Virus record (IMG/VR): IMGVR_UViG_3300022752_003832
Span: 1 to 61,517 of that record
Length of the DNA: 61,517 nucleotides
Origin: a virus
Strand: one strand, 5' to 3'
The translations under genes were made by a program, and so were the position numbers. The notes beneath the pieces are model-generated. The model did not search any database. It was not told the origin of the DNA and saw only the letters and a program-made list of their open reading frames with translations. Positions 9,621 to 32,708 of the stretch are shown here, one piece after another (position 1 is the stretch's first letter; every line of letters begins with the position of its first letter).

Positions 9621-12323
9621 TTAAGGGCAACTAGTAAAAACTTGCGTAACTACGCCATTTATTTGTCTAAATAATACATATGTGGCACCATTCAATCCAA
9701 TATACCAACCAGACGATTGATAATAATTACAAGTTGTTGTACTACCGTAGAATACTGTTCCTATTTGTATTGTTGGTGTGTCCATATATTGTGGGTCAAC
9801 CGCGCCCGAAGGTAAGCAAGTACCAGAAATTAAACAACTCAAGCTTGCACAGGCCGTAGCATAATTGTTTATTGTAAGACCATAAACGCTAGTTCTAAAG
9901 AAGAGATATGATGATGTATATGAATGATTTTGTAAACAAGGAACCGGTGTAGGTATAGGTGGGCATACTTCACAATCTCCATTTTGACCATAGATTTGAC
10001 CGTTCCATGTTATAGTTTGAGGACCTTGTGATGGTCCCGAAATTGTATAACACTCACCATTGGTAGCTCCTACAACATAGTATAAATCAAGATTTTGATA
10101 TTGAGGAGGTATTGAAATAACTTCATGTTGCAAATTATCAAAACATGACTGAGCAACTGCTAATATAGACGCGGGAGTAGGTGTAGGCGTTGGTGTGGGT
10201 GTTGGTGTTGGTGTAGGAGTAGGAGTAGGCGTTAAAGTAGGTGTTGGAGTAGGAGTTGGAGGTGGCGTTAGGCAGTTTGGACACCAAAAATCAAATAAAT
10301 CAAATTTTTCTTTTAAAATTCTAAAGTTATGTTGAACTTGTGGGCTACTAAATGGCTCAGTGTACATTCTAAATTGAGAAATTCCACCCATAAAAGACCC
10401 CCCAAAATTTTGTTCAACTAAAATATTTGTTGATAAAGAATTCAAAGAAGTTGCTGATAATATTTCATTTGGAAATAATTCTGGGTCTTGTATATAAGGG
10501 CCACCCAAAGGTATATAGTCACCAATAAATGTTAAAGTGCTGGCAGTTGATGCTGACGTAAAGTAAGGTGTTGAACCATACTCCACAGTTATTGTATTTG
10601 ATTGTCCTGTTAAACCTGACAACGTTATTATATTTCCACTACAATTTGTGTAAACTAAATCCGTTTCAATATTTCCAACAGACCAAAACCATTGTTGGCA
10701 AGAATCAAATATCAAATTGTCGTGTAATCCTTGACTACCCCCACCCCAAGAAATGTTAAATGGTACTCCGATTTGTTTTTCTTTTTCACAATTTAATTCT
10801 CTTGGAATTATTTCTTCAAAATTTTCAATAATTGTGAATAAATATCCATTAATATATAATTTTAATCTACCTAATCTGTACCAAGTATCGTCAAACCACT
10901 TATGGTCAAAAACAATTTTATATACTTTATTTTCTTTTGTGTCTCCCGAATGCGTTTCAGGGGGCATTATTAAATTGTAGGAAGTATTATTTAAAATAGA
11001 CTGATAAGTAACTTTTCTAATATCACCTAAACCACCAAGGTTTAATAAATCACATTCTTCGATTGTTGTGTAACGCTCAAACACGGCAGTAACCATTACC
11101 CATCTATCTTCAGTTATTTCACCACAAATATAATCACATACATCATAAATTGGAGGAGTACATACTTCTGTAATTGTATACCCTGTTTGAAAAGTAACAC
11201 CAGTAGTTTCACAAACCCCCGTCGTAACACAATCTCCTGTAATTTTAATGTATTTTACGCATAAACTTGGATTTAAAGGGCAACCACTAAATCTAATTGA
11301 TAATCCATTTGACAATACGTCAAACTTTGGGTCTAAAGGAGGGTTTGGAATTTGTTCAGTACAAGCTCCACAGTTACACCCAATGTTATGATATGCTGTT
11401 GTTGAACTTGTAGGGTATAATTTTACACAATTTGCATTTGTAAATCCTGTTTGATAACAAGTGCAACTACTTAAACTACCCAATCCTATTGTGCTTCTAG
11501 TGTATCCTGAATCAGATTCAGGACTTCCATTTGCGTAATGATAAAATTTGTTCTCAGCTCTTGTTCCAAAATAGAAAAAAGTGCCGGCATTACTTGGGTA
11601 CTTTGTGTTTAAGTATTCTTGTGTCAGGGTGTTGATTCCGTATTCTTCTATATTTCTTGGTTTTATAACCGTTTCCATTGTCCAACCTTTGTTTAACCTT
11701 TCAGGAAAAACTTCATAGTCATAACCAAAAAGTTTATAAAATCCTTGATAAAACCCACCATACAGTTCTTGATAATAACCTACCGTTGGGTCATATTTTG
11801 AAACTATATTGTACATAGATTGTTTAGGCCTTCCTGAAAAAACTTCATTTGGTGGAGTGGTGTAACCTGTGACCATATGCATTTTCATACGTCTATCATA
11901 ATAATAAGGATTAAACTTATAATCGTTCCTTATACCCATAGTGTAGTACAAAGTTTCGCCAGTTAAAGACGTAAATAATCCATTATCTGTACCAACTAAC
12001 CCTACATCACAAGTTCCTGTAAATGCAGATATACAATTTAAATCAACATTGTTTGGATTGTAATAATTTTTACTAACCAATGTTGCATTTGTATAAAAAT
12101 TATTAAAAAACATAGGTAGTTGGGGACAAGTTTCAGAATTACCCAAATCAAACAAAATTGGAAGTCTATTTCCGTCATTGTAAGCAATCAATTCATTAGA
12201 AAATACCACCTCTTCATCGTAGTCTTTTTCGTCTCCGACAAGTGTAAAATCAAAATAATTCGCAAAATTTAATTTTTGTGAATATTTTGGTGTAAAATAT
12301 GAATTAATACTTTGACTTGGCAT
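9621..12323 (-). CDS. Large Cys-rich adhesin/tail-fibre-like protein with a Pro-Thr linker
   Basis: 900 residues. Residues 1 to about 685 are rich in aromatic residues, Asn, Thr and Cys, and include a region resembling a LamG/concanavalin-like jelly roll (YRLGRLKLYINGYLFTI, then a SWGGGSQGLHDNL stretch). A (PT)n linker follows at about 686-718, then a roughly 180-residue C-terminal domain with paired Cys. The plan of a large beta module, stiff Pro-Thr linker and small terminal domain suits a surface-exposed receptor- or polysaccharide-binding protein. No catalytic site is recognised. It has its own late-type motif, is divergent from the gene at 12373, and is followed closely by a 117-residue partner. 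The Cys count is high for a phage protein assembled in the cytoplasm; metal sites or disulfides formed after lysis are possible. Confidence 0.6.
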   Translation of the reverse strand: MPSQSINSYFTPKYSQKLNFANYFDFTLVGDEKDYDEEVVFSNELIAYNDGNRLPILFDLGNSETCPQLPMFFNNFYTNATLVSKNYYNPNNVDLNCISAFTGTCDVGLVGTDNGLFTSLTGETLYYTMGIRNDYKFNPYYYDRRMKMHMVTGYTTPPNEVFSGRPKQSMYNIVSKYDPTVGYYQELYGGFYQGFYKLFGYDYEVFPERLNKGWTMETVIKPRNIEEYGINTLTQEYLNTKYPSNAGTFFYFGTRAENKFYHYANGSPESDSGYTRSTIGLGSLSSCTCYQTGFTNANCVKLYPTSSTTAYHNIGCNCGACTEQIPNPPLDPKFDVLSNGLSIRFSGCPLNPSLCVKYIKITGDCVTTGVCETTGVTFQTGYTITEVCTPPIYDVCDYICGEITEDRWVMVTAVFERYTTIEECDLLNLGGLGDIRKVTYQSILNNTSYNLIMPPETHSGDTKENKVYKIVFDHKWFDDTWYRLGRLKLYINGYLFTIIENFEEIIPRELNCEKEKQIGVPFNISWGGGSQGLHDNLIFDSCQQWFWSVGNIETDLVYTNCSGNIITLSGLTGQSNTITVEYGSTPYFTSASTASTLTFIGDYIPLGGPYIQDPELFPNEILSATSLNSLSTNILVEQNFGGSFMGGISQFRMYTEPFSSPQVQHNFRILKEKFDLFDFWCPNCLTPPPTPTPTPTLTPTPTPTPTPTPTPTPTPTPASILAVAQSCFDNLQHEVISIPPQYQNLDLYYVVGATNGECYTISGPSQGPQTITWNGQIYGQNGDCEVCPPIPTPVPCLQNHSYTSSYLFFRTSVYGLTINNYATACASLSCLISGTCLPSGAVDPQYMDTPTIQIGTVFYGSTTTCNYYQSSGWYIGLNGATYVLFRQINGVVTQVFTSCP
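10173..10268 (-). repeat. Degenerate (Pro-Thr)n coding repeat
   Basis: About 96 bases encode an almost unbroken run of Pro-Thr pairs with one Leu. Codons vary (ggtgta, ggagta and ggcgtt on the plus strand), so selection on the protein, not fresh DNA slippage, seems to keep it. It joins the large N-terminal region to the C-terminal domain of the adhesin-like protein. Confidence 0.85.
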
Positions 12324-14867: not shown

Positions 14868-15094
14868 AAGAATTAAATTTAATTTTCAAGTAGAATAGTG
14901 ATGATTATTGCCATCACAACCCAAAAAATCTAACTCATATTATTATCAAAAAGTAAAGAAAAAACAAAATAGTAATTACTATCATATAATAATAATAAAA
15001 TTGACTTAATAAAAATTAATGGTTATTTTTGAAAAAGGATAATATTCTAAGTTAGAATTTAATCTAAATATAATAAATAACTTAATCAAAAAAC
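14868..15094. other. Intergenic region before the glycan operon
   Basis: 227 bases, very AT-rich. It holds a small perfect hairpin (GTGATG 14898-14903, CATCAC 14912-14917, 8-nt loop, no T run) of unknown role, and the Bacteroidota-type promoter at 15001-15031. No TATTTATW late motif was seen, unlike before the virion units. Confidence 0.6.
15001..15031 (+). promoter_or_regulatory. Bacteroidota-type primary promoter for the glycan operon
   Basis: TTG at 15001-15003, a 20-nt spacer, and TATTTTTG at 15024-15031. This fits the -33 TTG / -7 TAnnTTTG pattern of Bacteroidota housekeeping sigma. A start site near 15038 would leave a leader of about 57 nt before the ATG at 15095. Confidence 0.65.
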
Positions 15095-16355
15095 ATGAAT
15101 CAAGAGAGCAATCCAACTCCAGACGTTCGCAGAAAAATTAGGGTCTTATGTGTTCCTAGCGACCGTACTGGAGTTGGCTGAATTAAAAGGAAAATACAGG
15201 TCTGTAGACGCACACGTAATGCTACAAAACAATCACTCAGATGAATTTCACGTAGATATAGATTATGACCCAAAAATTGATGATTATAATTATTGGAAAC
15301 AATATGATATTGTTCACTTTCATAGGTCAATAGGTCAAGATTTTGAAAAGGCTAATGATTTAATTCAAAAATTAAATTCTATTGGTGTAATAACAATTAT
15401 GGATTTGGACGACTACTGGTTACCAACCAAAGAACATCCAATACACCAATTAATAGTACAAAATAAATTAAATCAAAAGATAGTTGCAAATTTAAAAGTT
15501 TCTGCACATGTTACAACGACAACTTCTTTATTTGCGTCTGAAATATCTAAGATTAATAAAAACGTGCATGTTCTTCCAAATGCGATTAATCCAAAAGAGT
15601 CTCAATTTAACCACGAAACAAAACCATCAGACAAACTGCGGTTTGGATGGCTTGGGGGTTCTTCGCATTTACATGATTTAAAATTATTAAACGGTGTCAC
15701 AAATAAATTAAAAGATAGTAAAGACAAGTTTTCATTATATCTATGTGGTTTTGATACAAGAGGAAGTGTTACCGAAATTAATAAAGAAACGGGAGAACAA
15801 AAACAAAGACCAATACGACCAGAAGAAACTGTATGGGCACGTTATGAAGAAATTTTTACTGACAATTATAAGTTAGTTTCTTCTAATCATCTTGAATACT
15901 TGAAAAAATTTGAAGATTCAGAATATATTATAGAGTCTGAACCTTTTTACAATCGAGTTTGGACAAAGCCCGTTACAAGTTATGCTTCAAATTATAGATT
16001 ATTTGACGTTTCATTATCTCCTATTGTAAATCATATTTTTAACCGAGTTAAATCACAATTAAAAGTTATTGAAGCAGGTTTTTATAAAAAAGCAATTATT
16101 GCTTCAAACGTTGGCCCATATACCATTGATTTAAAACACGCATTAAAAAATGGTCAGTTTTCTGACGGAAACGCACTTTTAGTTGATGAAGTAAAAAATC
16201 ATAGTGATTGGGCTAGAAATATGAAAAAATTAATTGATAATCCTAATTTTGCGTATGACTTGGGTCAACGATTATATGAAACTGTAAAAGACACTTACGA
16301 TTTGAATGTGGTCACAAAAAATCGAGCAAATCTATATAAATCTTTATTAAAATGA
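15095..16355 (+). CDS. GT-B glycosyltransferase (GT4-like), reading frame interrupted by a 13-nt gap
   Basis: An ATG at 15095 opens 28 codons ending RRKIRVLCVPSDRTGVG, then TGA at 15179-15181. The rest of the protein is in another frame from about 15189 (KYRSVDAHVMLQ...). Skipping 15179-15191 gives DRTGVG-KYRSVDAHV, the expected first strand and Gly-rich loop of a GT-B enzyme, and a 415-residue protein. The downstream frame alone could start only at a GTG (15150), giving an unrelated leader and no first strand. Later parts include KLRFGWLGGSSHLHDL and VIEAGFYKKAIIASNVGPY, typical of GT4 acceptor/donor lobes. It heads the glycan operon and overlaps the next gene by 4 nt. Whether the gap is bypassed by ribosomes, frameshifted or inactivating is open. 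Confidence 0.8.
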
Positions 16356-17080
16356 TAAACACACCTATTAACAAAATTTTATTTATCGACATTGAAACTG
16401 TTGGTATATGTAAGGATTGGAAAACATGTCAAGAAAATCACCCTAAAATTGCAGAACAATTTGTAAAATACTTTGATTGGTTTTTAAAACGATTTCCTGA
16501 AGATGACATTAAAACAAATGGTCTTGAAGAAGAACTTCAAAAAATGAATGATGTTTATTCTTTAAGGGCGGCACTTGTTCCAGAATTTGCTAAAATTGTT
16601 TGCGTATCAATGGCATTTGTTTTAGAAAATGGTACAGTTAAAAAACAAACTTTTAAAAATAACAACGAAGATGATTTATTGTTGGAAGTTAGAAATTTAT
16701 TAGACCGTTGTCACAAATTAGATTTTTATTTGTGTGGTCATAATTTAAAAAACTTTGACATTCCAATGTTAGCAAAACGTATGATTATAAACAACATTAT
16801 GCCATCAAAAATACTTCCATCATACGACACCAAACCATGGGAAGTAAAAGCCATTGACACAAAAGAAATTTGGCAATACGGAACATACACTTCAATTGGT
16901 TCATTAGATTTAATGTGTTCTTGTTTAGATATACCAACATCAAAAGACGGTGAAGTCAATGGAGGTATGGTTCATCAGGCGTATTGGAATCATAATAGAC
17001 TTAATGAAATTGCACAGTACTGCGAAAAAGATGTTGATGTTCTGATTACAACAATAAAAAAATTAAAAAGTTTAAAATAA
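16352..17080 (+). CDS. DEDDy 3'-5' exonuclease (PolB exo2-like)
   Basis: 242 residues with motif I ILFIDIETVG (D13, E15), motif II CGHNLKNFDIPML and motif III QYCEKDVDV (Tyr...Asp, the DEDDy form). This matches the predicted 3'-5' exonuclease family related to the PolB proofreading domain. It has no polymerase part, so it probably acts on DNA ends in repair or degradation. It lies inside the glycan operon between a glycosyltransferase and dUTPase, coupled by a 4-nt overlap before and TAATG after, so it is made early along with nucleotide metabolism. Confidence 0.85.
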   Translation: MINTPINKILFIDIETVGICKDWKTCQENHPKIAEQFVKYFDWFLKRFPEDDIKTNGLEEELQKMNDVYSLRAALVPEFAKIVCVSMAFVLENGTVKKQTFKNNNEDDLLLEVRNLLDRCHKLDFYLCGHNLKNFDIPMLAKRMIINNIMPSKILPSYDTKPWEVKAIDTKEIWQYGTYTSIGSLDLMCSCLDIPTSKDGEVNGGMVHQAYWNHNRLNEIAQYCEKDVDVLITTIKKLKSLK

Positions 17081-17679
17081 TGTTTGAAAAATTAAAAGAT
17101 ATCAAAAATAGTATGAAGGCGTTAAATGACCTAAAATCACAATTTGGGGATATTGATATGTCTAACCCTGAAAGTATGTTGAAATCTATGGGGATTAATA
17201 CTGATGAATTAAATCAACATTTTGAAGGTCAATTTACATCATCAGTTGATTTAAATTTTGTAAATGATAGCGAAAATCAAAATCCTGTATACTCATACAA
17301 AAGTGATTCGGGGTTTGATTTAAGAGCTTCGGAAGAAAAATTTATTTTTCCAAATTCTAGAGCTTTAATACCTACGGGTTTGAGATTTGACATTCCTGAT
17401 GGTTATGAAATACAAGTAAGGTCCAAAAGCGGTTTAGCATTAAATCAAGGATTATTTGTTTTAAATTCGCCAGGAACGGTTGATAGTGGATACTTAGGTG
17501 AAATACAAGTTATTTTATTTAATACAACAACAGAAAAAGTTAAAATTGAAAAAGGTCAAAAAATCGCACAAGCGGTTCTTTGTCCTGTTGTCAGCGGCAA
17601 ATGGGTTAATTTAACACAAATTTCAAATTTAGGTTCAAAAGACAGAAATAATAATGGATTTGGGAGCACTGGTTTATGA
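17080..17679 (+). CDS. dut: dUTPase with N-terminal extension
   Basis: All five trimeric dUTPase motifs are present: SGFDLRA (about 77-83), RALIPTGL (94-101), RSKSGLALNQG (114-124) with GTVDSGYLGEI (D135), EKGQKIAQAVL (157-167) and the C-terminal RNNNGFGSTG. It hydrolyses dUTP to dUMP, keeping uracil out of phage DNA. Residues 1 to about 66 are an extra helical/acidic extension absent from the usual enzymes of about 150 residues; its role is unknown. Coupled to the exonuclease gene (TAATG) and to the next glycosyltransferase (ATGA). Confidence 0.93.
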   Translation: MFEKLKDIKNSMKALNDLKSQFGDIDMSNPESMLKSMGINTDELNQHFEGQFTSSVDLNFVNDSENQNPVYSYKSDSGFDLRASEEKFIFPNSRALIPTGLRFDIPDGYEIQVRSKSGLALNQGLFVLNSPGTVDSGYLGEIQVILFNTTTEKVKIEKGQKIAQAVLCPVVSGKWVNLTQISNLGSKDRNNNGFGSTGL

Positions 17680-19316
17680 TTACTGTAGGATTTTCAACAA
17701 GAAAAATAGATGACAATTTTGTCTCAATGTTAAAAAAAACATCAGGAGTGAGTAAATTGGAAATAATACCAATTGAAAACAATGGCGTATATTCTCTTAG
17801 TGAAGCTTACAATAAAATTTTAAACGACTCCACTAATGATATTATTGTATTGATGCACGATGACGTTTATTTTGATAGTAAAAATTGGGCGTCAAAAGTT
17901 TTAAATTATTTCAAAAGAAATTCTGACTACGGTATTCTTGGAGTTGCAGGTTCAACATCATTACCTTCATCTGGTAAATGGTGGGAAGATTTTTCAAAAC
18001 TTAAAGGAATTGTTAATCACGAACATGAAGGAAAAAAATGGGAGTCAAAATATTCACCAAGCAAAGGTAATCAGTTGGATGACGTGTTGTTGGTAGATGG
18101 GTTATTTATTGCAATTAATAAAAAAAATATTAAACACAACTTTAACGAAGAAGTTAAAGGGTTTCACTTTTACGATGTAGATTTTTCTTTTAGAAATTAT
18201 TTAGAAGATGTTAAAATAGGTGTTATGTATGATGTTAGAGTCACACATAAATCTATTGGTATGACTAATGAACAATGGGAAAAAAATAGAGAAGATTTTG
18301 CGATAAAATATAAAGATGTTTTACCCGTTAAAATAAAAAGAAATCTAACATTAGAATCACCTTTAAAGGTATTATTATCTTGTTTATTTTTTAAAACTTT
18401 TACAGGTTCAGAAATGTATGTTTATGAATTAGCAAGAGGATTAAAAAAATTAAATTGCGATGTCACGGTACTTTCAGACATTAATGGACCGTTATCTCAA
18501 TTAGCAAAACAACAAGGAATCAAAGTTGTTTCATTTCAAGATGCACCTGGTTATAAACTTGGTGACGGCAAATGGGGATTTAATACACCACAAGGGTTTC
18601 AACCGACACAACCAAATGTAATGTACAAAATTGGCGATGTTAATTATGATATTATACATACCCAACACACACCAGTTTCAAATCAAATGTGTCAGATGTA
18701 TCCAAACATTGATAAAATTTCAACAATACATTCTGAAGTTATTGAGTTAGAAAATCCAATTATTCACGATTCAATTAAAAAATATATTTGCATTCGTCCT
18801 GAGATACAAAACCATATTGTCGAAAAATTTAATATTGATAAAAATAATACTGAAGTAATTTATAATCCAATCGATACAAAAAGATTCAATTCAAACAATA
18901 TTAAAGATGATAATTATGTTTTGTTTGTTGGTACAATTGATTATTTAAGAGAAAATACAATAAGAGATTTAGTTACATACTCTTCTGAAATTAATAAAGA
19001 ATTATGGTTAGTTGGTGAAAATAAATCAAATTACTTGGATGATTTATTAAAAAATCCACACGTAAAACATTTTAACGCAACAAGTAAAGTTGAACAGTAT
19101 GTTAAAAACTGTTCTGAAACTGCAGGTATTCTTTTGGGAAGAACGACTATTGAAGGTTGGATGTGTAATAAACCTGGATGGATTTACAATGTTGAAAATA
19201 GTGGTTATATTTTAAATAAAAAATTATATACTCCACCGACAGATGTTAGTAAATTTAACTCAATTGAAGTAGCGAAAAAAATAAAAGAAGAATATATTAA
19301 AGTTTTAAATGATTAA
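17676..19316 (+). CDS. Two-domain glycosyltransferase (GT-A fused to GT-B/GT4)
   Basis: 546 residues. The N-terminal half (1 to about 225) is GT-A-like, with DIIVLMHDDVYFDSKNW (a DxD-type motif near 60-65) and a later FHFYDVDFSFRNYL that fits an acceptor-binding segment. The C-terminal half (about 240-546) is GT-B: KVLLSCLFFKTFTGSEMYVY, DIIHTQHTPVS, EVIYNPIDTKRF and a donor-lobe EGWMCNKPGW. The fusion would add two sugars in sequence or polymerise a repeat. Coupled by overlaps at both ends (4 and 8 nt). Confidence 0.85.
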   Translation: MITVGFSTRKIDDNFVSMLKKTSGVSKLEIIPIENNGVYSLSEAYNKILNDSTNDIIVLMHDDVYFDSKNWASKVLNYFKRNSDYGILGVAGSTSLPSSGKWWEDFSKLKGIVNHEHEGKKWESKYSPSKGNQLDDVLLVDGLFIAINKKNIKHNFNEEVKGFHFYDVDFSFRNYLEDVKIGVMYDVRVTHKSIGMTNEQWEKNREDFAIKYKDVLPVKIKRNLTLESPLKVLLSCLFFKTFTGSEMYVYELARGLKKLNCDVTVLSDINGPLSQLAKQQGIKVVSFQDAPGYKLGDGKWGFNTPQGFQPTQPNVMYKIGDVNYDIIHTQHTPVSNQMCQMYPNIDKISTIHSEVIELENPIIHDSIKKYICIRPEIQNHIVEKFNIDKNNTEVIYNPIDTKRFNSNNIKDDNYVLFVGTIDYLRENTIRDLVTYSSEINKELWLVGENKSNYLDDLLKNPHVKHFNATSKVEQYVKNCSETAGILLGRTTIEGWMCNKPGWIYNVENSGYILNKKLYTPPTDVSKFNSIEVAKKIKEEYIKVLND

Positions 19317-20046
19317 AGTTGTAAGTTGTTTTTGGAATGTTGAAAACTACATTGAAAAATGTATTAATTCGGTTAAATTTCAAACTTATCGGGACTTTAA
19401 AATGTATTTAATTGATGATATGTCTAATGACAATACAAATCAAATCATAGAAAAATTAATAGAGGGTGATGAAAGATTTATTCATATCAAAAACACTGAA
19501 AAAAAGTTCAAATTAAAAAATTTAGATGACTTATTGATGGATGAATCATTAATTGATGATGAAGATATTATTGTCGAGTTGGATGGTGATGATTGGTTTT
19601 ATAATGAATTAGTTTTACAAAAAATTTTTGATAGATATTCTAAAAACAAAAATCTTTGGATTACTAACGGTAGTTTTATATATTCTGATGGAAGGATGGG
19701 GTTTTCGTCAAAGACGAATCCTAACACAATAAGACGTGACTTATTTGTTTTTTCCCATTTAAGAACTTGGAAAGCACATCTATGGAGAAGTATAGATGAA
19801 GAAATGTTTTTAGATGAAAATAAAAATTATTTTAAATCAGGAGCCGATGTCGCATACTCACTTCCTATGGTTGAAATGTCGGGTGAAAATCATTATGAAT
19901 TTATACCCGACATACTATTAGTTTATAATGAAGAAAACCCATATAATGACCACAAACAAGGTAGTGCTAGTGGTTCCAATCTTGAACAAATAAAAGTATC
20001 AAACATCGTTAGAAATAAACAAAAATTAAATAAGTTAGTTAAATGA
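19309..20046 (+). CDS. Family 2 glycosyltransferase
   Basis: 245 residues with a GT2 N-terminus (IKVVSCFWNVENYIEKCINS, then MYLIDDMSNDNT) and the nucleotide-sugar/metal motif VELDGDDWFY near 92-100. No membrane segment, so a cytoplasmic enzyme. Overlaps the genes before (8 nt) and after (4 nt). Donor and acceptor cannot be read from the sequence. Confidence 0.85.
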   Translation: MIKVVSCFWNVENYIEKCINSVKFQTYRDFKMYLIDDMSNDNTNQIIEKLIEGDERFIHIKNTEKKFKLKNLDDLLMDESLIDDEDIIVELDGDDWFYNELVLQKIFDRYSKNKNLWITNGSFIYSDGRMGFSSKTNPNTIRRDLFVFSHLRTWKAHLWRSIDEEMFLDENKNYFKSGADVAYSLPMVEMSGENHYEFIPDILLVYNEENPYNDHKQGSASGSNLEQIKVSNIVRNKQKLNKLVK

Positions 20047-20852
20047 ATAATTTAATCTCGTGTAATTTAATGGGCGGTTTAGGAAATCAATTATTTCAAG
20101 CTGCTCACGCATTGGCACAAGGAATAAAACACGATAGAGAAGTAGTTTTTGTCCCTAAATCATGGACACCATTACAAGGTAGACAAGCTTCAAACTATAT
20201 TAATAACGTTTTTAGAAATTTAAAGTTTGTTGAGTCTATTGATGGATTTGAAAAAGTCGTTGAAGGTCCTTGGGAATATTCTGAAGTAAATCCAAAAACT
20301 AATAACACTGTCTTTGAAGGGTATTTTCAAAGTAGTAAAAACTTTTTGGGATATGATGAACAAATTAGAAATATTTTTTCCCCGACTGAAGATTTTATAA
20401 ATAAGATGTATGATAAATATCCACAATTAAAACAAGATAATACAGTATCTATACATGTTAGATTTGGGGATTATAAAAATAACCCCCACATACACCCAAG
20501 TGTTTCTAAATCTTATATAAATGAATCACTTAAACAAATAGGACAGTACTCACATATGTTCCTATTTGGTGACGACAAAAAATGGTTAAAAGAAAATTTT
20601 AACGGTAAAAATATTACATTAATTGATGAAGAAGATTATGTTGATATGTGGTTAATGTCACTATGTAATCATAACATAATATCTAACTCAACATTTTCTT
20701 GGTGGGGCAGTTTTTTAAATAAAAATCCACATAAAAAAATAATTGCACCTTCAATTTGGTTCGGTCCTAATGGTCCTAATAATTACAAAGATATATACCA
20801 ATCTGATTGGAAAATAATTGAAGTAAAATACAAAGACGGATGGTTAAGTTAA
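20043..20852 (+). CDS. Alpha-1,2-fucosyltransferase family protein (GT11)
   Basis: 269 residues with the GT11 marks: NLMGGLGNQLFQAAHALAQG at the N-terminus, SIHVRFGDYKNN in the middle (H-x-R-x-G-D-Y, binding the GDP moiety) and ISNSTFSWWGSFLN in the C-terminal lobe. Family members move L-fucose from GDP-fucose to a 2-OH. A GDP-mannose 3,5-epimerase in the same operon (28930) makes GDP-L-galactose likely to be present, which differs from GDP-L-fucose only by the 6-OH, so L-galactose is another possible donor (inference). Confidence 0.9.
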   Translation: MNNLISCNLMGGLGNQLFQAAHALAQGIKHDREVVFVPKSWTPLQGRQASNYINNVFRNLKFVESIDGFEKVVEGPWEYSEVNPKTNNTVFEGYFQSSKNFLGYDEQIRNIFSPTEDFINKMYDKYPQLKQDNTVSIHVRFGDYKNNPHIHPSVSKSYINESLKQIGQYSHMFLFGDDKKWLKENFNGKNITLIDEEDYVDMWLMSLCNHNIISNSTFSWWGSFLNKNPHKKIIAPSIWFGPNGPNNYKDIYQSDWKIIEVKYKDGWLS

Positions 20853-21658
20853 ACATGCTTTCAATTAATTTTGCCCACGACAAAGGGTCCACAGCAAATA
20901 AACCACCAATCAATATTCAGTGGTGTTTTAATAGTTATGAAAACCATATTTCTGTATATTTGGATAATGATTTTTTTAAAGGTATTATCGACCATAAAAA
21001 AGATGGGGGAAGTAAAAAAAAATTTCTATGGTTGTTAGAATCTAAAAAATTTGACAACAATGCGGTCAATAACGTAAAAAATAATTTAGAGCAAGTTTTA
21101 AGTACGTTCGAAGAAATTTGGACACATAACGACGAGTTATTATTATTACACCCAAAATTTAAATGGACTCCGGCTTACGGATGTTACATCAAAGATTTTG
21201 GAATTTATCCAAAAACGAAGTTATTATCGATGATTACTTCAGATAAACAAATAACAGAACAACATCGATTTAGATATAATTTTGCACAAAAAAATAAGAA
21301 CAAATTAGATTTATATGGTAGAGGTTTCAATGAAATTCAAAATAAAGAAGAAGGTTTAAAAGATTACATGTTTTCAATTGTTATTGAAAACGATACTTAC
21401 GACACTTATTTTACGGAAAAAATATTAGACTGTTTTGCTACCGGTACAATTCCGGTTTACATGGGAACAAAAAAAGTTATAAATTATTTTAATCCTGACG
21501 GTATAATTTTTCTTGAGGATACTTTTAACCCTTTACAACTCACTAAAAAACTTTATGATTCTAAAATTAAAGCAATAAAAGATAATTTTGAAAGAGTACA
21601 AAAATATAGTATTCTTGATGATTGGATTTTTGAAAATTATTTAATTAACTATGTCTAA
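20840..21658 (+). CDS. GT10 alpha-1,3/4-fucosyltransferase-like protein
   Basis: The C-terminal half has the GT10 signature: LDLYGRGFN, KDYMFSIVIENDTYDTYFTEK, then ILDCFATGTIPVYMG, which binds GDP-fucose in this family. The start at 20840 overlaps the GT11 gene by 13 nt. A second ATG at 20855, 2 nt past that stop, gives MLSINFAHDKGS and may be the real start. The adjacency of GT11 and GT10 enzymes suggests a doubly fucosylated (or L-galactosylated) glycan. Overlaps the next gene by 8 nt. Confidence 0.85.
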   Translation: MVKLNMLSINFAHDKGSTANKPPINIQWCFNSYENHISVYLDNDFFKGIIDHKKDGGSKKKFLWLLESKKFDNNAVNNVKNNLEQVLSTFEEIWTHNDELLLLHPKFKWTPAYGCYIKDFGIYPKTKLLSMITSDKQITEQHRFRYNFAQKNKNKLDLYGRGFNEIQNKEEGLKDYMFSIVIENDTYDTYFTEKILDCFATGTIPVYMGTKKVINYFNPDGIIFLEDTFNPLQLTKKLYDSKIKAIKDNFERVQKYSILDDWIFENYLINYV

Positions 21659-22358
21659 AATTTGTTTAATCCGACAACCTGCCGGTTTAGGTGATATATT
21701 CTTTTTACAAAAAATCGCAAAACATTATTTATCCCAAGGATATAAAATTTTGTGGCCGGTTATTTCAGAATTTAAATATATTAAAGATTATATAAAAGTT
21801 GAGAATATCACTTTTGTTGACGAAAATGAATCGTTTCCGTACAAAAATATATTCATGAGGGGAGACTCAACACCAATTCAAATAAGTGATTCATTACTTT
21901 ATTTACCTATCCAAAATTTTGATAGAAACTACCCTAATAAATCGGTTATGTATTCAAAATATAATTTATTAGGTATGGAATATCATGATTGGGTAGACTT
22001 CTTTGAGTTTGAAAGAAATTTAGAAAAAGAAAAAAAATTAAAGAATATATTGAATATTAAAGATTTGGAGTATAATCTCGTAAATCGACAATTTGGTTCC
22101 CCTCCTAATTCTCAAAACTGCAGTCATATGGGTCAATATGAAAACTCTATTGAGATGACATATATTGAAGGATATAGTATTTTTGATTGGGTAGGTATTA
22201 TATTAGGAGCCAAACACATATACACAGCAGAAACATCATTACTATATATTTTAACAAAATTAGGTTTAGAGAACGTAACAGTTTACTCAAAACATAACCC
22301 TCCGAATTATTTTCATGTTTTGGAATTATTCCCAAAAAATTGGACTTACATATTATGA
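21651..22358 (+). CDS. GT9/heptosyltransferase-like GT-B protein
   Basis: 235 residues. It starts KICLIRQPAGLGDIFFLQKI, like the Gly-loop N-terminus of heptosyltransferases and other GT-B proteins. Near the C-terminus, WVGIILGAKHIYTAETSLLY resembles the donor-lobe segment where such enzymes test for a sugar nucleotide. It is shorter than typical GT9 enzymes (about 320), with the centre reduced. Ends in an ATGA overlap with the methyltransferase gene. Confidence 0.65.
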   Translation: MSKICLIRQPAGLGDIFFLQKIAKHYLSQGYKILWPVISEFKYIKDYIKVENITFVDENESFPYKNIFMRGDSTPIQISDSLLYLPIQNFDRNYPNKSVMYSKYNLLGMEYHDWVDFFEFERNLEKEKKLKNILNIKDLEYNLVNRQFGSPPNSQNCSHMGQYENSIEMTYIEGYSIFDWVGIILGAKHIYTAETSLLYILTKLGLENVTVYSKHNPPNYFHVLELFPKNWTYIL

Positions 22359-22990
22359 TTGAAAACATTAAAGAAGAATTAAAAAAGTATTTTGAATCTG
22401 AAACTTATTTGGATGATGAAACAGGTTACACTAAAGATGGTAGAGGTGTTGATTGGATGATTGATAACCTTCTACCAAAAATACAACGACTAATTGATAA
22501 AGACATACATAAGAATTGTTTGGATGTTGGTTCCGCCCAAGGGTATTTTACAAGAGTCCTTAAAGAACATTTTTATAATACGTATGGTGTTGACTTTTCT
22601 GAAAATAGAATCTTATACGCAAAAAAATATGAGACAGATAATTTAAAATTTGTTGTTGCGGATTTAACTGAAAGTCTTACACCTAAAATCCCAATCAAAT
22701 TTGATTTTATGTTTACAAACGCTGTAATTCCACATATTCCAGCACAATTTAAATCTGACGTATTTAAAAATTTAGCAGAAATTGCTAACGTTGGGTGTAC
22801 TTTTGTGATTTACGATGGTATGATTGATGATGGAGTTGAGTTAACTTTCAATGAGTGGCAACCGGGACAACACATCAATGTTACTTTTTTTAGTAAAAGT
22901 TGGTTAGAGGAAAACGCAATCGATTGGGAAATTATTGAAATTAATAATATTGGTAATTTAACTGAAGAAATAATATTAAAAAGAAAATAA
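22355..22990 (+). CDS. Class I SAM-dependent methyltransferase
   Basis: 211 residues from the ATG at 22355, chosen because it forms an ATGA overlap with the previous stop; an in-frame TTG lies 15 nt upstream. Motif I is CLDVGSAQGYFTRVL, followed by NTYGVDFSENRI (acidic end of strand 2), FVVADLTES and DFMFTNAVIPHI. Probably methylates a sugar or glycan intermediate, given the neighbours. Followed after 6 nt by a second methyltransferase of a different family. Confidence 0.85.
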   Translation: MIENIKEELKKYFESETYLDDETGYTKDGRGVDWMIDNLLPKIQRLIDKDIHKNCLDVGSAQGYFTRVLKEHFYNTYGVDFSENRILYAKKYETDNLKFVVADLTESLTPKIPIKFDFMFTNAVIPHIPAQFKSDVFKNLAEIANVGCTFVIYDGMIDDGVELTFNEWQPGQHINVTFFSKSWLEENAIDWEIIEINNIGNLTEEIILKRK

Positions 22991-22996
22991 AAAATT

Positions 22997-23650
22997 ATGA
23001 GTTTATTTGGAGCATTTTGGGATAAAGACCCAAATCCGGTAGGGGAAAGTCAATTTGGTAATAATAAGGGTTTATTTTACAATTTACGGTGGTCACCAAA
23101 AGGTGTTTTACATATTGGTGCTTGGGATGCATGGGAGGCAAAACAATACGCCCATTTTTGTGGAAGCAACTCAATATTTTTAGAAGCCAACCCAAATTCA
23201 TACCTTACATTTAAAAATGAAATAGAACGATTTGGTCAGAAAATTTACAATTTAGCTGCGTGGAATGTTGACGATTTAGATATGGATTTATATTGTCCAC
23301 CATCGAATCCTGATTCAAGCTCATTGATTGAAAAAAATGGTATTCCGGTTAAAACAAAAACAATCACTATTAAAACTTTATTTGATAGAGAAAATTTAAA
23401 TTTTAATAATTATGATTTATTAAATATTGACACCGAAGGTGCGGAATTACAAGTGCTTGATGGTATAGGTGAAAATATAAAAAATTTTACATACATTATT
23501 ATTGAAGTAACCGATTTAGATTCTGAATTTGACCATAATATTCAAAAATATATGACAGAAAATGGATTTTTATTAGTCAGAGAAAGTACTCGACATATAA
23601 GTTCGGTTAATGGTAAAATGTTTTGTGATAAATTATATAAAAAAAAATAA
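22997..23650 (+). CDS. FkbM-family methyltransferase
   Basis: 217 residues with GVLHIGAWDAWEAKQYAHFC (modified motif I), IFLEANPNSYLTFKNEI, and the family hallmark DLLNIDTEGAELQVLDGI. FkbM enzymes O-methylate sugars or polyketides, including surface glycans. Coupled to the following gene by a one-base overlap (TAATG). Confidence 0.9.
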   Translation: MSLFGAFWDKDPNPVGESQFGNNKGLFYNLRWSPKGVLHIGAWDAWEAKQYAHFCGSNSIFLEANPNSYLTFKNEIERFGQKIYNLAAWNVDDLDMDLYCPPSNPDSSSLIEKNGIPVKTKTITIKTLFDRENLNFNNYDLLNIDTEGAELQVLDGIGENIKNFTYIIIEVTDLDSEFDHNIQKYMTENGFLLVRESTRHISSVNGKMFCDKLYKKK

Positions 23651-24480
23651 TGAAAAGTTCTGTTGTTTTATCATCCAAAAATGATAATTACGGTGGTAAT
23701 TTATATAAAAGAACCACAATGTCACTCATCTCATTAATTGAGAATCACGATGAAATTGTATTTGTTGATTGGAAAACTGAAAAAGGTAAAGGGGTAATTT
23801 CAAATATAAAACATAATTTACCTCACACCGGTAAATTAAAATATATTCAAGTACCAAAAGAATTATTAAAAGAAAAATACCCTTATTACTACCAATACAA
23901 TATGATAGAATCTATTAGTCGTAATGTAGGTATAAGAAGAACTTCAAATGATTTTATCGTCTCAACAAATATAGATATTGTAACTACACCATTAGACTTT
24001 TCTAAATTAAACGTAAATTCGTTTTATACTGTACCCAGACGAGATGTTGATGAATCACTTCATTTATCTTTTAACAATTTTAATTCTTTATATTCACATC
24101 TAACATTAAATAAAGATTCATTTAGACCTAAAGATAGAGTTAGTAATGAAAACGACAAATGGTCTTTAGTTATTTGTTGTGGTGATTATCAAATAGGACA
24201 TAGAAACACTTGGTTAAAAATGAAAGGGTTTGAAGAATCGGTTCTTTACGGATGCGGTATAGATACTAATGTAATGAAAAAAGCATCGTTTTATTCCGAT
24301 ATAAAAGTTTTAGAACACTATATTTTTCATCTAAACCATGGAAAACAATCAATACTAGATAAAGATGAATACGTACCCCCAATGTCTGACCAAAATTTAA
24401 TAATTAGAGATTTTATACAAACATCAAATACTGAAAATTGGGGAATGCTTAACGAAGATTTACCTATAGAATTAATATGA
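23650..24480 (+). CDS. GT-A-type glycosyltransferase
   Basis: 276 residues. It starts KSSVVLSSKNDNYGGN, then ESISRNVGIRRTSNDFIVST with NIDIV as the likely DxD-type motif. Later GDYQIGHRNTWLKMKGFEES and GCGIDTNVMKK fit the acceptor-binding part of galactosyltransferase-like GT2 enzymes. Coupled by one base before and 4 nt after. Confidence 0.7.
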   Translation: MKSSVVLSSKNDNYGGNLYKRTTMSLISLIENHDEIVFVDWKTEKGKGVISNIKHNLPHTGKLKYIQVPKELLKEKYPYYYQYNMIESISRNVGIRRTSNDFIVSTNIDIVTTPLDFSKLNVNSFYTVPRRDVDESLHLSFNNFNSLYSHLTLNKDSFRPKDRVSNENDKWSLVICCGDYQIGHRNTWLKMKGFEESVLYGCGIDTNVMKKASFYSDIKVLEHYIFHLNHGKQSILDKDEYVPPMSDQNLIIRDFIQTSNTENWGMLNEDLPIELI

Positions 24481-25109
24481 GTGAACCTAAATCTATTTTT
24501 ATCGTTGGTGGTTCAGCAGGTGCAAAAATTGCAACCAACATTTTTAGTCAAACACACCCAGATTATTTACTATATTATGTGGAATGTTTTTCAGATGAAA
24601 TCACAAGTAATATAATTTACCCTACAATAGATAAGGCACTTGACCATTTACGGTCACCCAACATTCAATATTTTATTGCAACCGGTGATAATAAAATGAG
24701 ACAAGAAAATTATGAGTTAATTAAATCTTATACAAAAAAAGAACCTATTAATTGTATTCACCCATCGGCGGTCATATCGACAAAAAAAATTGGTTATGGT
24801 AATTTAATTTGCCCCAACTCTGTCATTCACATTGACGCACATGTAGGAGACTGCACGATAATTAATACGGGAGCAATCGTAGAGCATGATTGTTTTGTTA
24901 GTGACTTTTCTCAAATATCACCTAACGCAACTCTTTGTGGGTATGTTAAAGTCGGTAAAAGGTCTTTTATTTCTGCGGGTTCGACAATAATACCAAAAAT
25001 AATCATAGGTGATGACTCAATAGTTGCTGCAGGTTCAGTTGTTATTAATGATGTAGATTCGAATGTAATGGTTGCGGGAACACCATCAAAAGTTAAAAAA
25101 AAATTATAA
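24477..25109 (+). CDS. NeuD/PglD-type sugar O- or N-acyltransferase
   Basis: 210 residues. The N-terminal Rossmann-like part (SIFIVGGSAGAKIATNI) matches the PglD-N domain. It is followed by a left-handed beta-helix of hexapeptide repeats (IGYGNLICPNSVIHIDAHVG; AIVEHDCFVSDFSQISPNAT; SIVAAGSVVINDV). His in VEHDC is the expected catalytic base. The family acetylates amino sugars or sialic acids with acetyl-CoA. The next gene is an aminotransferase, so the natural pair makes an N-acetylated amino sugar. Confidence 0.9.
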   Translation: MSEPKSIFIVGGSAGAKIATNIFSQTHPDYLLYYVECFSDEITSNIIYPTIDKALDHLRSPNIQYFIATGDNKMRQENYELIKSYTKKEPINCIHPSAVISTKKIGYGNLICPNSVIHIDAHVGDCTIINTGAIVEHDCFVSDFSQISPNATLCGYVKVGKRSFISAGSTIIPKIIIGDDSIVAAGSVVINDVDSNVMVAGTPSKVKKKL

Positions 25110-25111
25110 AC

Positions 25112-26266
25112 ATGAAAAAATATAATATCCCAATTTTCAAATTAAAATTTGATTTAAAATCTAAATTAAAATTCCTTAAAGGTTCTTGGGATATTTTATC
25201 ATCGAATAGACCATTAGGTGAATCAAAATATGTTAAAGAATTTGAAGATAAGTTTGCTAAACTAATTAAATCAAAATATGTTATGTCGTGTTCTAATGGT
25301 ACAACCGCAATTGAATTGGCATTAAAAACAATTGATGTTAGGGGTAAAAAAGTTTTAATTCCGTCTAACACATTTTTTGCAACCAGTGTCGCTGTAACCA
25401 ACTCAGGAGGGATTGTTGAACTATTAGATATGGAATCAGAATCTTTTTCTATTTGCCCAAAAGATTTAGAATCAAAGTTAACTTTAGATGTTGGGGCAGT
25501 TATTATTGTACATATTGGTGGTATAATTTCTCATAAGATTTCTAAGATTGTTGATTTATGTAAGAGAATGGATGTTCCTTTAATTGAAGATGCTGCACAT
25601 GCACAACTTTCATACAGAGGTAAATACAACGCGGGCACCATTGGTGATATAGGGTGTTTTTCTTTTTTCCCGACCAAAGTAATGACAACAGGTGAAGGGG
25701 GAATTGTTTCAACAAATAACAAAAAATATTACGAGAAAATGAAATCGTTAAAAAACTTTGGTCGTGATATTAATGATTATGGTGTAATTGTTAATTCTGA
25801 GGGTAACAATTTTAAAATTAACGAGTTCACAGGATTATTAGGTAGTATTGAATGTAACCGAGTAATAACAAGGATTGAAAAAAGGTCTCAGTTATTAGAA
25901 AGGTATTATAGTAATTTAAAAGAAACTGAATACGTTGTACTTAAACAAAAAGGTGATGGTAGGTGTGCATATTATAAGGCCATAGTTAAAACACCAATCA
26001 ATAGTTCATGGTTGAAGGAATACTGTAAAAAACACAATATTTCATTGACGGGTGAAGTATATAAAATACCAGTTCACCACCAACCTTTATATAAAAAACA
26101 ATTTTCCTATGTAAATTTACCAAATACTGATTATTATTGTAATCACCATATATGCCCTCCATTATATCCAGAATTAACGGTTAAAGAAGTGGATTACATT
26201 TGTGATGTATTAAAACAAGCATTAATTGATTATGAAAAACAAAGTAGCAAAACTAACACAAATTAG
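25112..26266 (+). CDS. DegT/DnrJ/EryC1/StrS-family PLP aminotransferase
   Basis: 384 residues. SCSNGTTAIELALKTI (PLP phosphate loop), VPLIEDAAHAQLSYRGK, and FSFFPTKVMTTGEGG with the PLP-binding Lys. The family transfers an amino group to keto-sugar nucleotides. Together with the preceding acyltransferase it should yield an acylated amino sugar nucleotide; the dehydratase or ketosugar source is not visible here and may come from the host. Starts 2 nt after the previous stop. Confidence 0.92.
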   Translation: MKKYNIPIFKLKFDLKSKLKFLKGSWDILSSNRPLGESKYVKEFEDKFAKLIKSKYVMSCSNGTTAIELALKTIDVRGKKVLIPSNTFFATSVAVTNSGGIVELLDMESESFSICPKDLESKLTLDVGAVIIVHIGGIISHKISKIVDLCKRMDVPLIEDAAHAQLSYRGKYNAGTIGDIGCFSFFPTKVMTTGEGGIVSTNNKKYYEKMKSLKNFGRDINDYGVIVNSEGNNFKINEFTGLLGSIECNRVITRIEKRSQLLERYYSNLKETEYVVLKQKGDGRCAYYKAIVKTPINSSWLKEYCKKHNISLTGEVYKIPVHHQPLYKKQFSYVNLPNTDYYCNHHICPPLYPELTVKEVDYICDVLKQALIDYEKQSSKTNTN

Positions 26267-27260
26267 AAAAATTGAAATTTTTGAAGAAGAAATTCCAAAA
26301 CTTCAGAAAGGTCAAATATTAGTCGCAATGAAATCTGTCGGAATCTGTGGTTCTGACATGCACTATTTTAAAGAAGGCGGTTTGGGTTCGTTTAAGAACC
26401 CTTTACCTATGTATATGGGTCACGAACCATCAGGAATTATTGTAGATTCAAATGGGTCAGATAAATTTAAAGATGGTGACCGAGTTGCGGTTGAACCAGG
26501 AATGCCTTGTGTTACTTCATATTGGGCATTAAAGGGTAAGCACAATCTTTGTGAAAAGGGTACATTTATGGGGGCAAATACTCAAGGAGCCTTTGCGGAT
26601 TATGTTATTGTTGAGGAATTACAACTTGTTAAGATACCTAATTCTATGTCGTTTAACTTAGCAAGTTTGTTAGAACCGTTAGGTGTTTGTCTTCATACTG
26701 CAAATTTAATTGAGCCTAAATTTACTGAATCCGCAACTATTTTTGGGTCTGGTCCTATTGGATTGTGTATGTTTTCAATATTAAAAAAAATGGGGTTAAA
26801 TGATATCTACATGATTGACAAACTACCGTATCGAGTAGATTTCGCTAAAAAGTTTGGGGCATTAAAATCATTCTTATTAACTGATGATTACAATAAAAAA
26901 ATTAAAGAACTCACTAACGGCATGGGAACTACAATTACCGTAGACACTGGTGGTACTGTAGAATCAATTGATGGGTGTATTAATGTTGCTGCGGTTAATG
27001 GTAAAGTCGCTCTGATTGGTATTCCTGAGTCTGATTTTATTTCATATAACCCACACAGAATGAGAACTAAAGAACTAACAATTAAAAATGTTAGAAGGTC
27101 AAATCAAACTTTACATGATTGTGTTAAACAATACTCCGAAGACACTGAAATTGAAAAAATAATTTCTCACGAATTTAAATTTGAGGACATTCAAAAAGCA
27201 TTTAATTTAGTGGCGGATTATAATGACCAAGTATTAAAATGTATTATAACAAATAATTAA
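26232..27260 (+). CDS. Zinc-dependent medium-chain dehydrogenase with degraded structural zinc site
   Basis: 342 residues from the ATG at 26232 (a TTG 6 nt earlier is in frame), overlapping the aminotransferase by 35 nt. Catalytic zinc ligands: Cys in SVGICGSDMHYF and His/Glu in MGHEPSG; the nucleotide loop is IFGSGPIGLCMF. Threonine/sorbitol dehydrogenase-like. The structural zinc lobe normally has four Cys; here PCVTSYWALKGKHNLC keeps the first and last only, with Ser and Ala at the two middle positions. It probably oxidises a sugar hydroxyl to a ketone, possibly supplying the aminotransferase (inference). Confidence 0.88.
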   Translation: MKNKVAKLTQIRKIEIFEEEIPKLQKGQILVAMKSVGICGSDMHYFKEGGLGSFKNPLPMYMGHEPSGIIVDSNGSDKFKDGDRVAVEPGMPCVTSYWALKGKHNLCEKGTFMGANTQGAFADYVIVEELQLVKIPNSMSFNLASLLEPLGVCLHTANLIEPKFTESATIFGSGPIGLCMFSILKKMGLNDIYMIDKLPYRVDFAKKFGALKSFLLTDDYNKKIKELTNGMGTTITVDTGGTVESIDGCINVAAVNGKVALIGIPESDFISYNPHRMRTKELTIKNVRRSNQTLHDCVKQYSEDTEIEKIISHEFKFEDIQKAFNLVADYNDQVLKCIITNN

Positions 27261-27262
27261 AC

Positions 27263-27997
27263 ATGAGCTTAGTACAAATTGTTGATGGTTTTAAATATAA
27301 AACCGAGGAAAGAAATACTGAAATAACTAACGTTATTAAATGGAATTGTAAAATTTTTGATAAGATTCACATTTTATGTGAAAACTTGGAATATTATGAA
27401 TTTTATAAACAGTTTCAATCGGATGTGGTTAATGTTGTTAATTTAGGTAGGGAAAGACTTATTTCTATGCAAGAAATGTTTAACTATATTAATGAAAAAT
27501 CAAATCCTGAAGATATTAAATTTTTATCTAACATTGATGCTATTTATACCAACCAATTTAAAAATCTATATGTTGAGGATGATTGTATATACACATTTAA
27601 CAGTAGACCCTTAAGGAATCCTAACTATTATAATGGTATTGGACATGAAGCTAATATTAGAGAAGAAAATGATGGTTTGGTTTTGTTTAATCGAGACGGC
27701 ATTTTAGACCCTAATTGGTTTATGGGAGATACAGAACTAAATAATGGGTATTGGCAAAAAGGGGTATGTAGTTGGGGGTGGAAAACAATTAAACATTTAT
27801 CAGAATCACACCAAGAGTGTTTTCAATGCTATCCACAGGCGGAACAATGCATGATGTCAGCATTTAGAGAAGTTGGTTATACGCTAAAGGCTGCAGGAAT
27901 AAAGTACCCTAATTACCATAATCATGGTTCTAACGAAAAAACAGAAAACAATAAACATGGAATGCAATTTAACGGAGAAATAACAGAATTATTATGA
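27263..27997 (+). CDS. Probable GT-A-fold glycosyltransferase, 244 aa
   Basis: 244 residues, not firmly recognised. DIKFLSNIDAIYTNQF gives a possible Asp-containing donor motif, and GILDPNWFMGDTELNN could be an acceptor segment. The C-terminus has clustered His and Cys (HQECFQCYPQAEQC; YPNYHNHGSN). Starts 2 nt after the dehydrogenase and overlaps the next gene by 4 nt, so it is part of the glycan operon. A glycosyltransferase role is inferred mainly from context. Confidence 0.5.
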   Translation: MSLVQIVDGFKYKTEERNTEITNVIKWNCKIFDKIHILCENLEYYEFYKQFQSDVVNVVNLGRERLISMQEMFNYINEKSNPEDIKFLSNIDAIYTNQFKNLYVEDDCIYTFNSRPLRNPNYYNGIGHEANIREENDGLVLFNRDGILDPNWFMGDTELNNGYWQKGVCSWGWKTIKHLSESHQECFQCYPQAEQCMMSAFREVGYTLKAAGIKYPNYHNHGSNEKTENNKHGMQFNGEITELL

Positions 27998-28926: not shown

Positions 28927-28929
28927 ATA

Positions 28930-29964: not shown

Positions 29965-29991
29965 TTATAAAACAACAAAAAAAATTAATAA

Positions 29992-30729
29992 ATGTCTTCA
30001 AGAAAAAAAATAACAACAGAAGAGCCTATAGTACCCCAAACATTTTCCAAAAAAGATTTCATAAATGCAACAATAAAAAGAAAACAAAAAAGTAAATTTT
30101 TATCTGACGAACAAAAACATTATTATGATATATTAATTTCAAATCAAATTACCATTTGTTCAGGTCCCGCAGGTGTTGGTAAAAGCTATATTTCAATGAA
30201 GGCGGCGGTTGACCTTTTGATGGACCCATCTAATTCATATGAAAAAATAATTATTGTAAGACCTGCAGTTGAGGCTGAAGAAAAATTAGGTTCCTTACCG
30301 GGTAATTTAGAAGAAAAATTAGACCCTTATATTTTTCCATCATATTATCTGTTGAATAAAATAATTGGTAAGGACTCCAGAGAAAAACTAAAAGAGGCTG
30401 AAATAATTGAAGTTTTTGCCTTAGCTTATATGAGAGGTATGAATATTGATAATTCTATTTTAATATTTGAGGAAGCTCAAAACGCAACACCAAATCAAAT
30501 TAAATTACTATTGACAAGAATCGGTTTTAATAGTAAATTTTTCATATCTGGCGACTTGGAACAAACTGACAGATATAAAGATAAAAAACAATCAGGACTA
30601 TACGACGCCCTTCAAAGATTTCAAAATGTAAACGATATTGGAATTTATGATTTTAGAAATGCAAAAAACGTAAGAAACCCATTAATTGGTAAAATTTTAG
30701 AGAAATACGATGAAGAAAATAGGAATTGA
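29992..30729 (+). CDS. phoH: PhoH-family ATPase
   Basis: 245 residues with Walker A SGPAGVGKS (57-65), IIIVRPAVEAEEKLGSLPGN, Walker B SILIFEEAQNATP and a SGDLEQTDR sensor. PhoH proteins are common in phages and carry a predicted RNA helicase/ATPase fold; their role in infection is unsettled. Starts 27 nt after the epimerase and overlaps the next gene by 20 nt. Confidence 0.94.
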   Translation: MSSRKKITTEEPIVPQTFSKKDFINATIKRKQKSKFLSDEQKHYYDILISNQITICSGPAGVGKSYISMKAAVDLLMDPSNSYEKIIIVRPAVEAEEKLGSLPGNLEEKLDPYIFPSYYLLNKIIGKDSREKLKEAEIIEVFALAYMRGMNIDNSILIFEEAQNATPNQIKLLLTRIGFNSKFFISGDLEQTDRYKDKKQSGLYDALQRFQNVNDIGIYDFRNAKNVRNPLIGKILEKYDEENRN

Positions 30730-31635: not shown

Positions 31636-31639
31636 TAAA

Positions 31640-32704: not shown

Positions 32705-32708
32705 TATT

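Follow-up and report, generated by a model that had tools for sequence, protein, structure and literature searches.

Structure of the interrupted gene

The window, by which we mean the whole 61.5-kb stretch of viral DNA that we analyzed, contains matches to T4-like head-protein, terminase, and helicase. On its forward strand lies a glycosyltransferase gene that is broken after 28 codons by a TGA stop codon. The features of the locus are as follows; the labels "take-off," "bypassed," and "landing" anticipate the inferred function.

14920..15138, +, decayed endonuclease remnant, C-terminal part, found by tblastn with the L040 endonuclease; overlaps the glycosyltransferase start
15095..15178, +, ORF1, the N-terminal 28 codons of the glycosyltransferase (direct reading; N-terminal purifying selection)
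15113..15122, +, stem-loop 5' arm, CCAACTCCAG, a 10-bp perfect complement of 15168-15177, with compensatory changes in relatives
15168..15177, +, stem-loop 3' arm, CTGGAGTTGG, which takes in the first two bases of the putative take-off codon
15176..15178, +, putative take-off Gly codon GGC (GGY or AGY stands directly before the stop in 49/49 interrupted copies)
15179..15188, +, putative bypassed gap, TGAATTAAAA, TGA stop first; missing from uninterrupted relatives (gap of 2 to 10 nt in the family)
15189..15191, +, putative landing Gly codon GGA, the same codon as in uninterrupted L004
15192..16355, +, ORF2, the other 387 codons of the GT-B glycosyltransferase, with the stop codon (dN/dS of 0.048 versus L001)

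ORF1 encodes MNQESNPTPDVRRKIRVLCVPSDRTGVG, whose terminal residues are VPSDRTGVG, and is followed by TGA at 15179-15181. It provides the first GT-B strand and the nucleotide-binding loop, and it ends at the take-off codon, GGC. ORF2 begins with AAA at 15192 (KYRSVDAHV...), is in a frame other than that of ORF1, and is open to 16355. An alternative genetic code was set aside because the remainder of the gene has no in-frame TGA. No tRNA genes were found in the window.

The original prediction, made from this sequence alone, had described a 28-codon ORF that runs into TGA with the enzyme continuing in another frame, and direct reading gave exactly its coordinates. It had also proposed that removal of 13 nt would restore the expected enzyme. 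Deleting 15179-15191 (equivalently, one Gly codon plus TGAATTAAAA) does produce the uninterrupted enzyme of the relatives, and the nearest uninterrupted relative, L004 (94% identical), agrees: it reads GGAGTT-GGAAAATTTAGG with no insert, and relative to it the window and L001 each have exactly 13 additional nt. Whether homologues share these nucleotides had been left to an alignment; the 13 nt are missing in L004, and the same 13-nt class is present in L001/L106, L040, L133, and L140, which are contigs from other metagenomes.

Recurrence of the interruption at one codon

A query with ORF2 alone returned 80 glycosyltransferase relatives, most of them uninterrupted and several broken at the same codon in differing ways. 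Pattern, glycosyltransferase, and endonuclease searches together brought the totals to 49 distinct genes with the interruption and 108 without it. The interruption is not a chance event, for it recurs at the exact codon in 49 distinct sequences. Sequences from related phages are not independent. Well-supported branches of the gene tree carry at least 19 changes of interruption state, and the near-identical pairs L254/L255 and window/L004 each have one interrupted and one uninterrupted member. No relatives were found in bacterial genome contigs. A pattern with a gap of 17 to 47 nt matched two stretches, neither of which passed the filter, and a KYSRMD class of pattern matches was discarded as unrelated sequence.

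The take-off codon was GGC, GGT, AGC, or AGT, with a stop codon immediately after it, in 49/49 interrupted copies (TGA in 28, TAA in 20, and TAG in 1). The landing codon begins 2 to 10 nt past the take-off codon and lies directly 5' of the conserved [KYF][FY]RS. Gap sizes of 2, 3, 4, 5, 6, 8, 9, and 10 nt occurred, giving net frames (gap modulo 3) of 0, +1, and +2 in 32, 6, and 11 of the 49 copies, respectively. An RF2-type +1 frameshift or readthrough would require the two ORFs to stand in one fixed frame relation, which they do not, and either one as a single mechanism was rejected because spacers occur in all frames.

Take-off and landing codons specify the same amino acid in 48/49 copies (Gly/Gly in 40, Ser/Ser in 8), and 48/49 landing codons share their first two bases with the take-off codon. 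Examples with Gly are GGC-TGA-GGT, GGT-TAA-GGT, GGT-TAACTAAA-GGT, and GGT-TAACCAACA-GGT; examples with Ser are AGC-TGACTA-AGC, AGC-TGACA-AGC, and AGC-TGAA-AGC. The landing codon can even overlap the stop codon, as in AGT-TG-AGC and GGT-TA-GGT. The script that classified the copies imposed no landing-codon condition. Part of the loci were retrieved by means of a pattern fixing Gly or Ser; those retrieved with protein queries obey the matching rule as well, L185 excepted. L185 (3965-3973) has the sole mismatched pair, with AGT for take-off and GGC for landing. This pair would require U-G pairing at the first codon position and may be either a natural test of the landing rule or a decaying copy.

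Uninterrupted relatives have Gly or Ser at the same position, encoded by varied codons (GGN, AGY, and TCN). Thus, the protein accounts for the Gly or Ser but not for the repeated codon. Three frames together with a repeated codon cannot be explained by frameshifting, readthrough, or both, whereas re-pairing of the peptidyl-tRNA at a matching codon suffices.

A hairpin that ends at the take-off codon

When the region from -66 to +2 was folded, the median energy was -29.4 kcal/mol for the 49 interrupted copies (range, -23 to -35; weakest, -23.1) and -6.9 kcal/mol for the 108 uninterrupted genes (range, -2 to -13; strongest, -12.9). The two sets had zero overlap (U = 0, P ≈ 1e-23): a strong 5' hairpin was present in 49/49 interrupted copies and in no uninterrupted copy. 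Swapping the arms among 29 arm pairs reduced the summed helix score from 622 for a copy's own helix to 463 ± 18, and 0 of 20,000 permutations reached 622. In the three groups with a common register, double-sided changes numbered 18, 6, and 8, against 5.4, 2.3, and 2.9 in shuffles, and were higher than in all shuffles. Sliding the partner dropped the paired cells from 85 to 97% to 24 to 56%. This last control is favorably biased because the structures were partly derived from the same sequences; the energy contrast and the arm swap are free of that bias.

RNAalifold found no consensus structure for the undivided 29-sequence Gly group, because the register of the stem slides by 1 to 2 nt between subgroups; the stem that it missed was recovered when pairs were counted within the main register groups. 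In every interrupted copy the paired region ends between -2 and +1 of the take-off codon, and 10 to 15 pairs lie in the portion of the stem expected to be still inside the ribosome. Gap length was correlated with the energy gained on stem completion (Spearman's coefficient, -0.45), which is suggestive only, as the copies are related. The stem is still present in copies without the endonuclease described below.

We scanned both strands of all the collected loci (5.4 Mb) for the full signature: an open frame, a stop codon, a matched codon within ≤12 nt, an open frame, and a hairpin. The scan returned 55 sites, 48 in the glycosyltransferase and 7 elsewhere, and no convincing case in any other gene was found in these 5.4 Mb. 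The loci had been collected around the glycosyltransferase gene; the scan therefore demonstrates specificity but not absence from genes elsewhere.

Conventional recoding of a kind that differs from copy to copy could be proposed instead of bypassing: a +1 frameshift at GGC-TGA in the window, adding ELKG, with readthrough in the in-frame copies and a -1/+2 shift elsewhere. The RF2-like +1 shift that had been raised as an option for the window agrees with its net frame, which is +1, but does not extend to the family, where gaps of 2, 3, 5, 6, 8, and 9 nt require other shifts; readthrough is formally possible in the 32 of 49 copies that are in frame. Taken together, three mechanisms would be required at one codon under one hairpin architecture, residues would be added to a loop whose length is constant in uninterrupted relatives, and the match between landing and take-off codons, as well as the Gly-Ser covariation, would be left without a reason. 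We regard such recoding as improbable.

Selection on both parts of the gene

For the window compared with L001, another interrupted copy, dS was 0.63 and dN/dS was 0.048, and the ratio was equally low against uninterrupted L004. Within ORF1, these two interrupted copies differ by four synonymous changes and one nonsynonymous change. Across the family, ORF1 and the beginning of ORF2 are under purifying selection, with a pN/pS of 0.26 for ORF1. As judged by these substitution patterns, the interrupted gene is used, and the purifying selection on its two parts speaks, though only indirectly, for one joined protein. The predicted structure of the L004 protein is a GT-B fold of two domains (pLDDT, 91.6), with GlgM, MshA, and BshA as the best PDB matches, in which the part equivalent to ORF1 forms strand 1 and the loop preceding helix 1. 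The match to Pfam Glyco_trans_1_4 was below the cutoff.

These data bear on two further explanations. In the first, ORF1 is dispensable and the enzyme begins 3' of the stop codon, or two separate chains complement each other. The window does have an in-frame ATG at ORF2 codon 10, but a start there would lose strand 1 and the GVG loop; many copies lack a later start codon able to stand in for ORF1, and in several (L110, L121, L082, and L083) there is no in-frame ATG for 98 to 266 codons; and ORF1 is conserved at the protein level as the N terminus of the enzyme itself. We consider this explanation slightly weaker still than copy-specific recoding. The second, an inactivating insertion that left a pseudogene, had been kept as a possibility in the original prediction. 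It could draw on the decay of the endonuclease linked to the window's gene and on the Ala that replaces the near-invariant P24 there, but it is contradicted by a dN/dS of about 0.05, which at this dS between two interrupted copies is the same as in uninterrupted pairs, and the invariant positions of ORF2 are all unchanged in the window. An error of assembly is countered by the reappearance of the insert in independent metagenomes. We give very little weight to either of these last two.

A linked homing endonuclease

Directly upstream of many interrupted copies is a gene of about 300 codons that overlaps the glycosyltransferase start. Its product has a helix-turn-helix (HTH), a Cys-rich region, a NUMOD3 motif (above the Pfam cutoff), and a Vsr-like catalytic domain. 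The top PDB matches of its predicted structure were Vsr and I-Bth0305I, with a modest E of ~0.01, and a profile matched I-TevI (chain 1i3j) across the zinc-finger/NUMOD3 region. On these features, we take the gene to encode a Vsr-like/NUMOD3 homing endonuclease; that it cleaves the target is an inference. No full-length relative of it was found in phage records, where coverage was ≤30%.

Among genes found by glycosyltransferase queries, which constitute an unbiased sample, the endonuclease or a remnant was upstream of 15/19 interrupted versus 3/95 uninterrupted genes (P = 1e-12). Its distribution beside the target is sporadic and empty alleles exist, with window-L004 and L254-L255 as occupied/empty pairs. 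The remnant in the window corresponds to residues 242 to 315 of the intact L040 protein (50% identity across 74 amino acids; E of ~2e-10 to 2e-13) and contains three in-frame stops. The endonuclease occurs without the interruption (L163, L168, L172, and L177), and the interruption occurs without a recognizable endonuclease in eight relatives; thus, the insert and the endonuclease are separable.

The notion that the hairpin and matched codons are merely DNA-level leftovers of endonuclease insertion (a target duplication and an inverted repeat), with expression by some unknown route such as removal at the RNA level, takes support from the insert's travel with the endonuclease and from the identity of the landing codon with the original L004 codon, but we find it the least credible of all, because duplication predicts identity, yet the pairs differ at the third base and agree at the first and second (GGC/GGT, GGC/GGA, and AGT/AGC), the stem is retained after the endonuclease is lost, and we know of no RNA excision that acts on such short inserts.

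Proposed programmed bypassing

We observed an insert that recurs at one codon, covariation of both the codons and the hairpin, linkage to an endonuclease, and selection on both parts of the putatively joined protein. Our interpretation, to which we assign a probability of roughly 0.88, is programmed ribosomal bypassing, in the form of a short stop-hop, within a mobile homing-endonuclease cassette. The hop itself is inferred; there are no peptide, ribosome profiling, or reporter data. The bypass like that of T4 gene 60 suggested in the original prediction thus gains strong support from the codon covariation, the spacers in all frames, the covarying stem-loop, and the linked endonuclease. Its caveat about the nonidentity of GGC and GGA still applies to the window copy, which matches at 2/3 bases; most relatives have GGY/GGT or AGY/AGY.

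We propose the following sequence of events. The ribosome would translate ORF1 up to GGC, at which point TGA would occupy the A site and the upper part of the hairpin would already be outside the ribosome. The lower 10 to 15 bp would then be completed, the 3' arm covering the first two bases of the take-off codon. Completion of the stem would drag the mRNA backwards, disrupt the pairing of the peptidyl-tRNA, and move the ribosome forward. The peptidyl-tRNA-Gly would re-pair at GGA past the ten-nucleotide gap, and translation would restart at AAA, giving a product of 28 + 387 amino acids with zero added residues at the junction. The 10- to 15-nt stroke of the stem is about the length of the hop (2 to 10 nt plus a codon). 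That completion of the hairpin, acting as a zipper, both breaks the P-site pairing and advances the ribosome is inferred, and neither its efficiency nor a role for the nascent peptide has been shown. The insert would have come with the upstream endonuclease and probably broke its recognition site, so that the carrier would be protected; the window's endonuclease would have decayed after the insert arrived. Cleavage at the insertion site is likewise an inference.

Comparison with known bypassing systems

Until now, the case for bypassing has come, to our knowledge, from a single well-studied phage gene, T4 gene 60, and from yeast mitochondria. We found no prior description of the interrupted glycosyltransferase family in the literature searched, which excluded most subscription journals. 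T4 gene 60 has a 5' stem-loop motor, matched codons, and a linked endonuclease (PMC5009743, PMC11194080, PMC3014915), and its 5' stem-loop has been proposed to exert a pull on the mRNA after the take-off codon has been released (PMC5009743, PMC11194080). Like gene 60/mobA, the glycosyltransferase family has a stop codon directly after a Gly take-off codon, a matched Gly landing codon, an upstream 5' stem-loop, an upstream homing endonuclease, uninterrupted relatives, and a T4-like phage setting.

The differences are also clear. The gap is 2 to 10 nt rather than 50 nt, too short for the take-off hairpin with the stop inside that gene 60 has; the KKYK nascent-peptide motif of gene 60 was not seen in the glycosyltransferase copies; the 5' stem-loop sits nearer to the take-off codon, and its 3' arm terminates within that codon; Ser is used besides Gly; the nuclease is Vsr-like with NUMOD3 instead of HNH, and the target is a glycosyltransferase; and the family is found in dozens of phage contigs, not in a single phage. 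Interrupted copies do have a common basic N-terminal extension (e.g., NGRERIRVL), which may merely reflect the stem. The glycosyltransferase element would operate in the manner of gene 60 without duplicating its element.

Synthetic stop-hops between matched codons around a stop have been reviewed (PMC5009743). The family shares their codon-stop-codon geometry, in which nine nucleotides yield one residue, but it is natural and conserved and is accompanied by a dedicated hairpin and by linkage to a mobile gene. In mitochondria of Magnusiomyces capitatus, byp elements have been described that do not depend on mRNA context (PMC5009743). The family resembles them in having many inserts, here putatively bypassed, and in tolerating imperfect codon matching, but every interrupted copy of the glycosyltransferase has a structured hairpin and a stop codon. 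The predicted catalytic fold of the endonuclease is like that of I-Bth0305I, a Vsr-like homing endonuclease, and the profile match of its DNA-binding region is like I-TevI; unlike either, it is free-standing beside its presumed target and has an HTH and a Cys-rich region.

Short-distance, matched-codon counterparts of gene 60 have long been presumed to exist (2016 review, PMC5009743), and the question of bypassing in other genes of T4-related phages has been raised (PMC3014915). The family offers dozens of natural variants, which differ in the length and frame of the gap, in the codon, and in the stem, and so makes the rules of take-off and landing testable by comparison. This would be a second link between recoding and homing, with a different nuclease and gene, and suggests a general route by which mobile elements enter needed coding sequence. 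A more specific model, toward which we lean with considerable reservation, is that a recoding module of ~80 nt, made up of the hairpin, GGY/AGY-stop, a short gap, and the matched codon, is portable and spreads from phage to phage with the homing endonuclease; that refolding of the hairpin alone, without the take-off hairpin or KKYK of gene 60, drives the 2- to 10-nt hop of peptidyl-tRNA-Gly or -Ser; and that the insert immunizes the host gene against the endonuclease.

Additional observations

In L163, L164, L168, L172-L175, L177-L179, and L187, the gene immediately downstream of the endonuclease is an uninterrupted glycosyltransferase. Protection at these loci, if it exists, must come about in some other way; in several of them the middle region of the nuclease is incomplete. 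At the insertion site, uninterrupted L007 and L032 (~2985-3001) have GVF-KFRSGDPH in place of GVG-KFRSVDPH and may be alleles in which the endonuclease site was changed by substitution, not by the insert. In L203-L205, distant relatives of the endonuclease are followed by apparent intein (Hint) segments, an arrangement that recalls split inteins in fractured genes.

In the window, the interrupted gene is the first of about 20 genes on the same strand (15095-34264). Several of these visibly encode glycosyltransferases, and early in the run there are one exonuclease-like and one dUTPase-like gene. On the opposite strand, 9621-12323 encodes a 900-amino-acid protein with an extended linker of PTPTPT repeats; the protein may be a tail or surface component.
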